Part shown: positions 4,673 to 17,952 of the stretch, one piece after another
Numbering within the stretch: the first letter of the stretch is position 1
Layout: every line of letters starts with the position of its first letter
Assembly: GCF_900105885.1 (NCBI RefSeq)
Contig: NZ_LT629780.1
Span: forward strand, 1,178,001-1,242,000
DNA length: 64,000 bases
Direction of reading: 5' to 3'
DNA from: Pseudomonas guangdongensis
Lineage (GTDB): Bacteria > Pseudomonadota > Gammaproteobacteria > Pseudomonadales > Pseudomonadaceae
Translations under genes and position numbers: made by a program
Notes under the pieces: generated by a model
What the model was told of the DNA's origin: nothing
Database searches by the model: none
The model's input: only the letters and a program-made list of their open reading frames with translations

Positions 4673-5449
4673 CTAGCCGCGCAGGCCGGCGGAGAGCAGG
4701 GCGATCGAGCAGTCGTCGCTGCTCTTGCGGGCGAAGGCCTGCTCCAGGTTGGCGGCGAGGATCGCCTCCATCTTGGCCTTGGGCAGCGTGGCGTTCCAGC
4801 CCAGCAGCTTCTGGATGGCGCCCGCCGCCGGGGTGCCGGAGGCCTTGAGGTAGAGGCTTTCCGCGGTGCCGTCGCTCATCACCACGAAGCCCAGCGGGCC
4901 GGCGTCCTCGCCGCGCAGGATGCGCAGGTGGCGCACCGCCGAGGCGTCGGTGAGAAAGCGCGTGGTGTTGGCGAACTCGCCGTTGTCGGGGGGCGACAGC
5001 GCCTCGACCTGGCCGCCGGCACCGAGCCGGGCGATCAGCCCGTCGCCCAGGTGGCCGGCCAGGTAGCGGCCGCCCTGGTGGACGACGAACAGCAGGGTGC
5101 AGGCCAGGTCCTCGACCCGGCAGTCCATGCGCTTGGCCTGCCGGCGCAGGGCCGCCAGGCAGTAGTCGGCGAGCTGCCGGGCGACGCCGGGGGCATCCGT
5201 GGCGGACTGCGCCCAGAGCGCGTCGAAGTGCCGGCAGACGAAGCGGATCGTCGCGCGCACCGCCACCTCGGCGCCGAACTCCGAATGCGGCCGCGAGCCG
5301 GCGCCGTCCGCCAGGGCGATGCAGGCGATGTCGCGGCCCTGACGGCTCGACACGTAGTCCTGGCAGGGCGTCTGGGTTTGCGCGTGGGAGCGCCCGACGA
5401 TGCGGGCGCAGGCCGTCTTGTAGCGGAATTCGGCAGCCGTGGTCGACAT
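4673..5449 (-). CDS. PP2C-type serine/threonine phosphatase of a TerY-P triad
   Basis: A 258-residue metal-dependent protein phosphatase (PP2C_2 type). The metal-binding acidic motifs are present in order: ALADGAGSRPHSEFGA, GHLGDGLIARLG, VMSDGTAESLY and SSDDCSIALLS. It is the last gene of a three-gene minus-strand operon (kinase, VWA protein, phosphatase) and begins 5 bases after the VWA stop codon, so the two are translationally close. Its likely role is to remove phosphates placed by the kinase encoded at 6186-7976. The target is not known. The start at 5449 (MSTTAAEFRYKTA) has a GGGAGAG-like ribosome site. Family assignment is firm. Assignment to the triad rests on gene order. Confidence 0.9.
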   Translation of the reverse strand: MSTTAAEFRYKTACARIVGRSHAQTQTPCQDYVSSRQGRDIACIALADGAGSRPHSEFGAEVAVRATIRFVCRHFDALWAQSATDAPGVARQLADYCLAALRRQAKRMDCRVEDLACTLLFVVHQGGRYLAGHLGDGLIARLGAGGQVEALSPPDNGEFANTTRFLTDASAVRHLRILRGEDAGPLGFVVMSDGTAESLYLKASGTPAAGAIQKLLGWNATLPKAKMEAILAANLEQAFARKSSDDCSIALLSAGLRG

Positions 5450-5454
5450 GGAAC

Positions 5455-6129
5455 TCAGACTCTCCCCCAGGCGCTGATCCCGGCGACGTCCAGCTCCACC
5501 GCCTCGCCCGGGGTGGACTGCGAGACGCGCGACACGCTGCGGCTCAGCCAGGTGAAGAAGTCGGCGAAGTTGAGGCCGTTGAGGCGCAGCGGCGGACGCA
5601 TCGGCGACAGCCGGCCGAGCACCTGCAGGTTGGCGGCGTCGCCGATGGCGATGGGGAACACGGTGAGCTTCTTGTCGGCCACCAGGCTCTCGATGCGCGC
5701 TGCGGCCAGGGCGATGTCGTCGGTCGGCTCGCCGTCGGTCATGATCACCATCCACGGCTGGTAGTAGTCGACGCCGGCGCGCTTGTAGTCCTCCTTGCGC
5801 GCCTCCAGCAGGTCGAGGGCGAGGGTCACGCCCTGGCCCATCGGGGTCATGCCGTTGGCCTTCAGGTCGGGCACTTCCTGGCGCTCGATGGACATGAAGT
5901 CCAGGGCCTTCTGCACGCTGCTGCCGAAGGTGACGATGCTGATCTCCACGGCGTACTGCGCCACCTCGTCTTGGCGGATGGCCTCGAAGAACATCTGTAC
6001 GCCCGATTGCAGCTCCTGGATCGGCGCGCCGTCCATCGAGCTGCTGACGTCGAGGACCAGGCAGATGGGAACGCGGGCGGTCGGGTTCTCGACGAGGTCT
6101 TCCTGACGGAGTACGTATTCTTCTTGCAT
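5455..6129 (-). CDS. TerY-like VWA domain protein
   Basis: A 224-residue protein consisting almost entirely of a von Willebrand factor A domain of the TerY family. The metal-ion-dependent adhesion site is complete: DVSSS (Asp27, Ser29, Ser31), Thr95 in NGMTPMGQG, and Asp132 in MTDGEPTDD. Such domains usually scaffold protein complexes by binding an acidic residue of a partner through a divalent metal. It sits between the kinase and the PP2C gene, all on the minus strand, which is the order of the TerY-P triad described in comparative studies of tellurite-resistance (Ter) systems. No terD/terC genes are in this window, so this is an orphan triad here. Confidence 0.9.
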   Translation of the reverse strand: MQEEYVLRQEDLVENPTARVPICLVLDVSSSMDGAPIQELQSGVQMFFEAIRQDEVAQYAVEISIVTFGSSVQKALDFMSIERQEVPDLKANGMTPMGQGVTLALDLLEARKEDYKRAGVDYYQPWMVIMTDGEPTDDIALAAARIESLVADKKLTVFPIAIGDAANLQVLGRLSPMRPPLRLNGLNFADFFTWLSRSVSRVSQSTPGEAVELDVAGISAWGRV

Positions 6130-6185: not shown

Positions 6186-7976
6186 TCAAAAAAAACCGAG
6201 GAACCCCCGTGGCGGCTTGCCGCCCGCCGGACGCGGGGCGGCGCGTGGCGCGGGGCCGGGGGCCGGGGCGGGCGCGGGGCGGGCGAAGCCCTGGCCCAGC
6301 AGCGGCAGGCGCAGGCCGACCGCCTGCTGGGTGCGGCGGCTCTGGTCGGCCATCTGTTCGAGGTTGGCGCGGTTCACGCACTCCGGGCACCAGGTCTGCT
6401 TGCCCTGGCGCTGCATGCTGCGCAGCCATTGTTCCGATTCGATGTAGCGCGCGCCGCACTTGCCGCACAGCGCGTCCATCGGGTCGCGGATGCGAAAGCC
6501 CATGGGGAACAGCTCGTCGCTGGTGTGCTCCTTCTCCAGCGAGTAGCGGTAGCGCTGCAGCAGGCGCTGCCACTCGTCGATCGGGGTGCGCCGGTTCATC
6601 CGGAAGGTGTTGTGGAAGGCCTCGCGCAGCGGATAGGGCAGGTTGCTCCAGATCCGCTGCCAGGGGCCCTGCGGGGCGTTCTTGCCGGGGAAGTTGTCCT
6701 CGCCCTGGATGAACAGGTAGGGGAAGTCCATGGCCTTGATGTTGTCCATCGGCGAGCCGCCGCCCTGCTGCGAGTAGGGCGGCTTGCCCGGATGCAGGAA
6801 CATGAACAGCATGGTCGCCACGGCGAACAGTTCGTGCTCCTTGCTGCGCAGGTAGTCGCCGTAGTGGCGGCCCTGGATCTCCGGCGCGGTGAAGTTCACC
6901 GTGCCGACCGGGCAGGGGAAGTTCTCGATCTGGAAGCTGTCGGTGTCGACCAGCCACAGCTGGCGGCTGTCCTCGCCGACCAGCAGGTTCAGCGGGTTGA
7001 TGTCGCCGACGATGATGTTCAGCCGGTGCAGGAAGTCGATGTGCTCGACGAAGGCGATGCACAGGTTGACCAGGTCGCGGCGCCGCCAGTGCGGGAAGTT
7101 CTTCTCCAGCACCGGCTTGACGAACATGCTCGACTGCACGGTGCGTCCGCTGGCGCGCGGCATCAGGTAGCCGATGAACTCGCCGGCCTCGTTGAGGGCC
7201 AGTTCGGTGGGCCAGCACAGGCCGGGGCGCTCGATCCGCCGGCTGACCATCAGCTCGATCTTGCGCCGGCGCAGCTCGCTCAGCTTGTGCGGATGGTAGA
7301 CCTTGCAGACTTCGCCGGCGCTGTCGGTGGCGAAGATGCTGCCCTCGCCGCCGGCGCTGATCGCCGCGCCGAGCCGCAGATGCCGCCCGGACGGAGTGCG
7401 GATCGCCGCGCCGCTGGCCGGCAGCTGGCGCACGCTGAGCGGACGGTCGCTCTCGGTGAGCGGGGTGCTCGGCAGGGCGAAGGGAGCGACCGGCGGAGTC
7501 GGGCTGGCCGGCGCGGGCGCTGCCGGCAGCGGCGCGCGGCGCGGCGGGCCGTCCCACAGCGCCACCGGGACGCCCGCCGCCTCGGCCTGGCGGGCCAGCG
7601 GGCGGTCGCGACTGATCAGGATCATCGCGTAGTCGCGGGCCAGCTGCAGCAGCTTGGCGGCCGCCTGGTCCCCGGCGCGGCCGAGCAGGAACAGCGCGCC
7701 GCCGCGAAACTCGATGTGCTGCAGGCTGTCGCCCGGCTGCAGCGCGCGGCCGTCGGGCAGCGCGGTCATGGGCTGCGCCGGGCGCTTGCCGAGGGTGCGC
7801 AGGAGCGCCTGGGCGTTCTGCCCGACCGGCGCGTCCTGTGGCGCACACTCCAGCCCGCCGGTCGCGGCGGCGATCAGGAACGGCGTCCCGCTGCGCTGGC
7901 GGATCCGGGCCAGGATGTCCGGATCGTCGAGAAACACGCGGGTATCAATCAGGATGTTTGCGCTGTGCTGGGCCAT
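6186..7976 (-). CDS. PIN-like domain / protein kinase / zinc-ribbon fusion protein (TerY-P kinase)
   Basis: A 596-residue multidomain protein. Residues 1-141 look like a PIN nuclease domain of the PhoH-associated type: ILIDTRVFLDDP (Asp11), GLEC (Glu43), AGDQAAAKLL (Asp103), and LISRDRPLARQA (Asp124) before a closing strand. A Pro/Ala linker (142-190) follows. A kinase domain (about 195-475) has glycine loop SAGGEGS (207-213), Lys225 in VCKVY, VGDINPLN with Asp325 and Asn330, VDTDS at the DFG position (Asp344) and TAPE (363-366). The HRD His is replaced by Gly. A zinc ribbon (Cys504, 507, 530, 533) and a Pro-rich tail end the protein. It is the first gene of the kinase-VWA-PP2C operon, 56 bases before the VWA gene. 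I chose MAQHSANILID as the start; two upstream Met codons are less likely. Confidence 0.85.
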   Translation of the reverse strand: MAQHSANILIDTRVFLDDPDILARIRQRSGTPFLIAAATGGLECAPQDAPVGQNAQALLRTLGKRPAQPMTALPDGRALQPGDSLQHIEFRGGALFLLGRAGDQAAAKLLQLARDYAMILISRDRPLARQAEAAGVPVALWDGPPRRAPLPAAPAPASPTPPVAPFALPSTPLTESDRPLSVRQLPASGAAIRTPSGRHLRLGAAISAGGEGSIFATDSAGEVCKVYHPHKLSELRRRKIELMVSRRIERPGLCWPTELALNEAGEFIGYLMPRASGRTVQSSMFVKPVLEKNFPHWRRRDLVNLCIAFVEHIDFLHRLNIIVGDINPLNLLVGEDSRQLWLVDTDSFQIENFPCPVGTVNFTAPEIQGRHYGDYLRSKEHELFAVATMLFMFLHPGKPPYSQQGGGSPMDNIKAMDFPYLFIQGEDNFPGKNAPQGPWQRIWSNLPYPLREAFHNTFRMNRRTPIDEWQRLLQRYRYSLEKEHTSDELFPMGFRIRDPMDALCGKCGARYIESEQWLRSMQRQGKQTWCPECVNRANLEQMADQSRRTQQAVGLRLPLLGQGFARPAPAPAPGPAPRAAPRPAGGKPPRGFLGFF

Positions 7977-15244: not shown

Positions 15245-17818
<2,574 letters not shown>

Positions 17819-17952
17819 GGGATGAGCCTGCAACGGAAAGCGGATAACGCCGGAACCCGCGGCCTCGCGGCGCGCGGGTTCCGGTGGGAAGCTGCGTGGC
17901 GGGCGCTACTAGCAGCGTAGCAGCGCCCGGCGCGGACGGCGTGCGGGACGCC

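Follow-up and report, generated by a model that had tools for sequence, protein, structure and literature searches.

Within a 64,000-nt stretch of the Pseudomonas guangdongensis genome (hereafter the window; the genome is a single contig of 3.19 Mb), we found a three-gene operon that encodes what we read as a TerY-P-type switch kinase carrying a PIN domain, with the PIN most likely catalytically dead or nearly so and probably serving as a binding module through which a signal reaches the kinase (probability about 0.55). The three genes are adjacent and lie on the same strand in the order PIN-kinase, vWA protein, PP2C phosphatase, with the following features (positions are those of the window):

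6186..7976, minus strand: PIN-kinase gene, 596 aa (ATG start at 7976, TGA stop ending at 6186)
7554..7976, minus strand: PIN-fold domain, kinase residues 1-141 (predicted fold and profile match to a PhoH-like PIN)
7946-7944, 7856-7854, 7661-7659 and 7607-7605, minus strand: PIN catalytic positions, respectively D11, G41, A106 or gap, and D124 (alignments)
7500..7541, minus strand: disordered Pro/Ala-rich linker, residues 146-159 (pLDDT <50)
6534..7391, minus strand: protein kinase domain, residues about 196-481 (Pfam Pkinase, Foldseek, invariant residues)
6369..6482, minus strand: zinc-ribbon-type CxxC...CxxC segment, residues about 499-536 (Cys504, Cys507, Cys530, Cys533; invariant cysteines)
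6189..6257, minus strand: disordered tail, residues 574-596, with a short hydrophobic end, FLGFF (pLDDT <50)
5455..6129, minus strand: TerY-like vWA protein, 224 aa (Pfam VWA E 2.5e-12; MIDAS-type DxSxS, T and D read in the sequence)
4673..5449, minus strand: PP2C-family phosphatase, 258 aa (Pfam PP2C_2 E 5.1e-49, and sequence)

Structurally, the N-terminal domain of the kinase has a PIN fold in the predicted model, one of the checks that an earlier note on this DNA had set for its proposal of a PIN-like domain fused to the N-terminus of a triad kinase; computation recovered the fusion and a kinase, vWA and PP2C operon, and the Pro/Ala linker between PIN and kinase is likewise present and modelled as disordered. 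The sequence of the domain alone fell under the Pfam cut-off, and comparison of the domain with the family alignment by hhalign (E 6.6e-7) detected a relation to the PIN superfamily. The domain could be aligned over 136 columns to the PIN (PIN_4, PF13638) of a protein which, from its sequence, we take to be PhoH-like, and whose gene, located elsewhere than the triad, is the only PIN_4 match in the genome. This family likeness is what stands of the proposal that the domain is of the PhoH-associated type; a PhoH-associated PIN is fused to the PhoH ATPase, whereas the PIN of the window is fused to a kinase domain and has two acids fewer. For a VapC-type partner of the PIN-kinase, the genome offered no PF01850 match. 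Also set aside, as chance matches, were PF20028 (VMAP-C) on residues 104-166 (E 0.047; 14 bits, where the cut-off is 27) and ribosomal S15, the sole match of the PhoH-like PIN among solved structures (E 0.03 or worse).

Catalytically, the window domain reads D-G-A/gap-D (D11, G41, A106 or gap, D124) at the four positions that hold D-E-D-D in 74 of 111 proteins, window counted; this set comprised the window protein and the best 120 of 715 matches (121 in all), of which 10 without the N-terminal core were dropped. In pairwise alignments with the 74 intact proteins, the first and fourth positions fell on D11 and D124 in all 74, the second on G41 in 73 (with a gap in one), and the third on A106 in 46 (with a gap in 28), and hhalign placed the Glu of the PhoH-like protein, which keeps the two acids that the window has lost, opposite G41. 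Judged from these alignments, the window copy does not carry the four homologous acids (D-E-D-D) of a catalytic PIN nuclease. We take the catalytic letter of the D-E-L-D motif to be the Glu before Leu (the second acid), and the third acid to be an Asp starting a later helix. Among solved structures, the intact PIN of the Roseateles relative L025 matched 1o4w (E 0.011) and 3i8o (E 0.3) by sequence, both weakly, with E-L-E at the D-E-L-D site in these alignments. Of the four acids that the earlier note had named as the catalytic site, Asp11 and Asp124 are confirmed, whereas Glu43 and Asp103 are not. Glu43 lies two residues past the second position and aligns with the last letter of D-E-L-D, which is Asp in every one of the 74 intact proteins; Asp103 lies three residues ahead of the lost third position and has no acid opposite it in any of these 74, and so was rejected as the third catalytic acid. 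Because Glu43 sits at a conserved acidic position, it could stand in for the lost second acid, making a partial rescue possible, and an acid is kept there in eight of the 26 rows without the second acid, including the window, P0002 and P0003 (among the window and the best 120 of 715 matches). With D11 and D124 retained, metal binding by the window PIN may persist.

Evolutionarily, the loss is not confined to the window. Leaving aside three further proteins without the first aspartate column, which were excluded from the intact and degenerate counts, we found 34 degenerate rows among the window and the best 120 of 715 matches: 25 lacked both the second and third acids, eight only the third, and one only the second. 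The first acid was kept in 34/34 of these rows and the fourth in 26/34, and P74, D83, R100, Y116 and W141 were each conserved in all 34. Two trees of the kinase region (FastTree with 118 sequences, and IQ-TREE with 72, for which 35 intact proteins were hand-picked out of 74) each gave five state changes, at least three of them forced by well-supported branches, with an IQ-TREE bootstrap range of 4-5; L104, which has a very long branch, fell inside the ingroup in the FastTree tree, and the IQ-TREE tree was built without it. By-eye labels were degenerate for L024 and L026-L029, and intact for L025, L030 and L104-L106. Since the PINs of the Bacillota, Fusobacteriota and Actinomycetota relatives (L030, L105, L106 and L104) look intact by eye, the intact PIN is likely the ancestral state and its loss looks derived. 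Loss of catalytic acids would thus have happened at least three times, probably five, in lineages that kept the domain, the framework residues and an open frame.

Constraint on these degenerate PINs appears to be relaxed, not absent. At a kinase identity of 0.55-0.60, mean PIN identity was 0.30 in degenerate pairs (n = 260) versus 0.47 in intact pairs (n = 1054; the pairs are non-independent), a sign of relaxed constraint. Selection was tested on the one unsaturated pair, L027/L028, which lies outside the clade of the window and is degenerate by eye, and gave a dN/dS of 0.228 for the PIN, 0.130 for the kinase, 0.403 for the linker and 0.489 for the tail; the pairs L026/L029 and L027/L026 were saturated or nearly so (PIN dN/dS of 0.132 and 0.464). 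It is these ratios for L027/L028, together with the framework residues conserved throughout the degenerate rows, that point to constraint that is relaxed but still in force.

The earlier note proposed that the kinase and phosphatase would control an RNA-cutting domain in cis; aligned with intact relatives, the window copy is missing its second and third acids, which leaves cutting by it unsupported. For the window PIN to be a still active RNase, D11 and D124 would have to rebuild a site with the displaced E43 and D103. The two outer aspartates are indeed in place, E43, also present in P0002 and P0003, occupies a conserved acidic position, and the intact quartet is the commoner state of the 111 proteins; yet P0004, P0005, P0006 and P0008 carry no acid at residue 43, D103 recurs in P0002 only among P0002-P0008 and has no acidic counterpart in intact relatives, and P0002, which is 99% identical to the window protein (a cluster representative, in which a sequencing error is possible), shows Gly at residue 124. 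In PIN domains the second acid usually lies on a helix, but no helix is predicted for residues 37-51 of the window protein, and residues 41-60 are modelled with low confidence. We consider an active RNase unlikely.

Two further explanations accept the loss and differ in what the domain would still be for. A degenerate PIN that pairs in trans with another PIN and supplies it with some of the acids, as SMG5 does for SMG6, would be expected to look like half a site, and the pattern of the degenerate rows (first acid always and fourth mostly kept, second and third both gone in 25 of 34) fits this; the SMG5-SMG6 pair offers a precedent in the excerpted text of PMC12923823. Furthermore, the Fusobacterium PIN-kinase has directly upstream a gene (L106:4439-5347) with a weak HTH match and a PIN-like stretch that, by eye, lacks the third acid, so that its product is a possible companion pseudo-PIN; a Pfam scan of it, however, recognised HTH only and no PIN, and the genome of the window, searched with PIN_4 and PF01850, offers as a partner nothing but the PhoH-like protein, which makes a composite site quite improbable here. 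Alternatively, the PIN may be merely decaying, a dispensable leftover without function on a working kinase, in line with the faster divergence of the PIN in degenerate lineages and with the additional loss of D124 in P0002. Against such decay stand the at least three, probably five, lineages that shed the catalytic acids but not the domain, its framework residues or the open frame, as well as a PIN dN/dS in L027/L028 that exceeds the kinase value but is lower than those of linker and tail, and we judge it improbable.

We therefore return to a PIN that has most likely ceased, or nearly ceased, to cut: because two of its four acids are lost, sensing, binding or regulating is likelier than cutting for the window PIN. 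Mechanistically, we posit that the kinase with its C-terminal four-Cys segment, the TerY-like vWA protein and the PP2C phosphatase form a phospho-switch to which the N-terminal PIN is tethered by a flexible linker. In the intact relatives, which make up two thirds of the compared set, the PIN would probably be a metal-dependent RNase under kinase and phosphatase control, either as a cutting effector or as a cutting sensor. In the window, it would most likely bind (RNA, another protein or a partner PIN) without cutting, or cut poorly, and feed a signal, perhaps set off by phage or stress, to the kinase, which would then phosphorylate a target, perhaps the vWA adaptor, before PP2C resets the switch. 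More tentatively, and with less confidence than in the binding role itself, the PIN could be a sensor and not an effector, binding RNA or a phage product and gating the kinase in what would be a prokaryotic pseudo-nuclease receptor kinase; the shedding of catalysis in several lineages that kept the fold and, mostly, the two outer aspartates is what suggests such a gate. This is a widespread version of TerY-P with a nuclease-fold domain on its kinase, one that looks active in the majority of the compared proteins but has been disarmed several times elsewhere, and natural comparisons between active and inactive forms would tell whether the PIN is a weapon or a sensor.

The kinase-phosphatase switch itself looks intact, since neither the kinase motifs nor the four cysteines vary among the sequences aligned. 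Although the Pfam Pkinase match (E 8.8e-6, 25.7 bits) lies under the 31.7 cut-off, 50 of the 50 Foldseek matches listed for the full-length model were kinases, and the kinase residues K225, D325, N330, D344 and D346 were invariant in 83 aligned sequences, as were Cys504, Cys507, Cys530 and Cys533, which form a zinc-ribbon-type segment and putative metal site. The FLGFF tail is a possible docking or membrane tail; the kinases of L024-L027 have hydrophobic or amphipathic C-terminal tails like it. Twelve of the relatives listed, of 807-1032 aa (P0063, P0087, P0105-P0108, P0111, P0112, P0115 and P0117-P0119), carry SEL1-type repeats (PF08238) besides the PIN.

TerY-P itself is described, in the excerpts of PMC11090510, as a vWA protein, a PP2C and a kinase whose C-terminal part is a zinc ribbon or, in some cases, an OB fold; for this triad a metal-sensing phospho-switch has been hypothesised; excerpts of PMC10889362 report anti-phage activity, mention a variant, and describe triads that shield Pseudomonas aeruginosa from some phages. 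These portions of the two papers name no proven sensor or target. The window triad resembles TerY-P in its set of three adjacent proteins and in a kinase with C-terminal CxxC...CxxC, and differs in the N-terminal PIN and in its kinase-vWA-PP2C order, whereas triads from the same family (L002-L007, L020 and L021) have vWA-PP2C-kinase or vWA-kinase-PP2C and kinases that start near the kinase domain. PADLOC matches were weak: the kinase matched PD-T4-6 best (E 2.8e-5), then MkoA (1e-4) and STK_OB (1.8e-4), the vWA protein matched TerY (E 0.034), and the PP2C matched PDC-M21C, a model of another system (7.2e-5). Gene sets of kinase-zinc ribbon, PP2C and vWA also adjoin GAP1-N2 systems in actinobacteria (PMC7159879), with the same three proteins but no PIN on the kinase in the excerpted text. 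For the intact relatives, Ire1, in which a KEN RNase follows the kinase at the C-terminus (PMC3710099, in excerpt), offers a works-like analogy, with kinase and RNase-type domain sharing a single chain, although its RNase fold is unrelated and at the opposite end, and the window domain is probably non-catalytic. The PIN of SMG5, which completes the active site of its partner PIN SMG6 (PMC12923823, in excerpt), similarly acts through a partner, but is eukaryotic, lacks a kinase fusion and has a known partner. Excerpts of PMC11090510, PMC10889362, PMC7159879, PMC12839542, PMC3710099 and PMC8195603 make no mention of a PIN on such a kinase. The fusion, a combination that the earlier note had not seen described, is the subject of no paper in the literature searched, a scope outside which the founding TerY-P paper (Anantharaman 2012, cited in PMC11090510) and Gao 2020 lie and may describe the fusion; database annotation already labels some relatives 'PIN domain-containing protein'.

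Ecologically, the order PIN-kinase, vWA, PP2C recurs in L024-L030, L104, L105 and L106, whereas L031 has no PIN and a different gene order, and L032 and L033 have yet other orders. In the bacterial family of the window, 19 of 198 genomes had a kinase match, and none of the 198 except the window's own had one starting before residue 137; an order-wide sample gave matches at 1e-30 in two of 293 genomes, the window's own among them. So sporadic an occurrence in family and order is in keeping with horizontal spread. Plasmids of Paenarthrobacter and Lysinibacillus carry such triads, a plasmid search gave five records at E 1e-20, all with query coverage under 80%, and a search of phage sequences gave one weak match only, to the kinase part. 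Around the window triad lie glutamine synthetase, acyl-CoA dehydrogenase, a chemotaxis receptor and acetyl-CoA hydrolase; of five neighbours scanned, four were metabolic or chemotaxis proteins and one had no match. Promoters and terminators did not exceed expectation; a weak terminator-like hairpin with a T run lies at 6197-6209, in the last kinase codons before the vWA gene (one found in the region, 1.5 expected). The sole predicted tRNA of the window (Phe, gaa; 17107-17202) is antisense inside an ORF (15245-17833) that is membrane transporter-like by eye, and is probably a false positive.

A defence-island context was only partly borne out, with known defence systems upstream of the triad in two of the six Pseudomonadota loci L024-L029 (L026 and L029) and an integrase upstream in one (L025). 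The systems are Lamassu LmuA/LmuB (L026:1393-4861) and Gabija GajA/GajB (L029:1664-5838). By eye, similar ORFs flank the triad in L027 and L028. Nine ORFs of L024, L027 and L028 were scanned, of which seven had no match and two, of 910 aa each, matched CARF3; these two lie on the opposite strand beside the triad (L027:10460-13189 and L028:10488-13217), and the matches (E 1.6e-8 and 2.9e-8) extend over the last ~60 aligned residues only.
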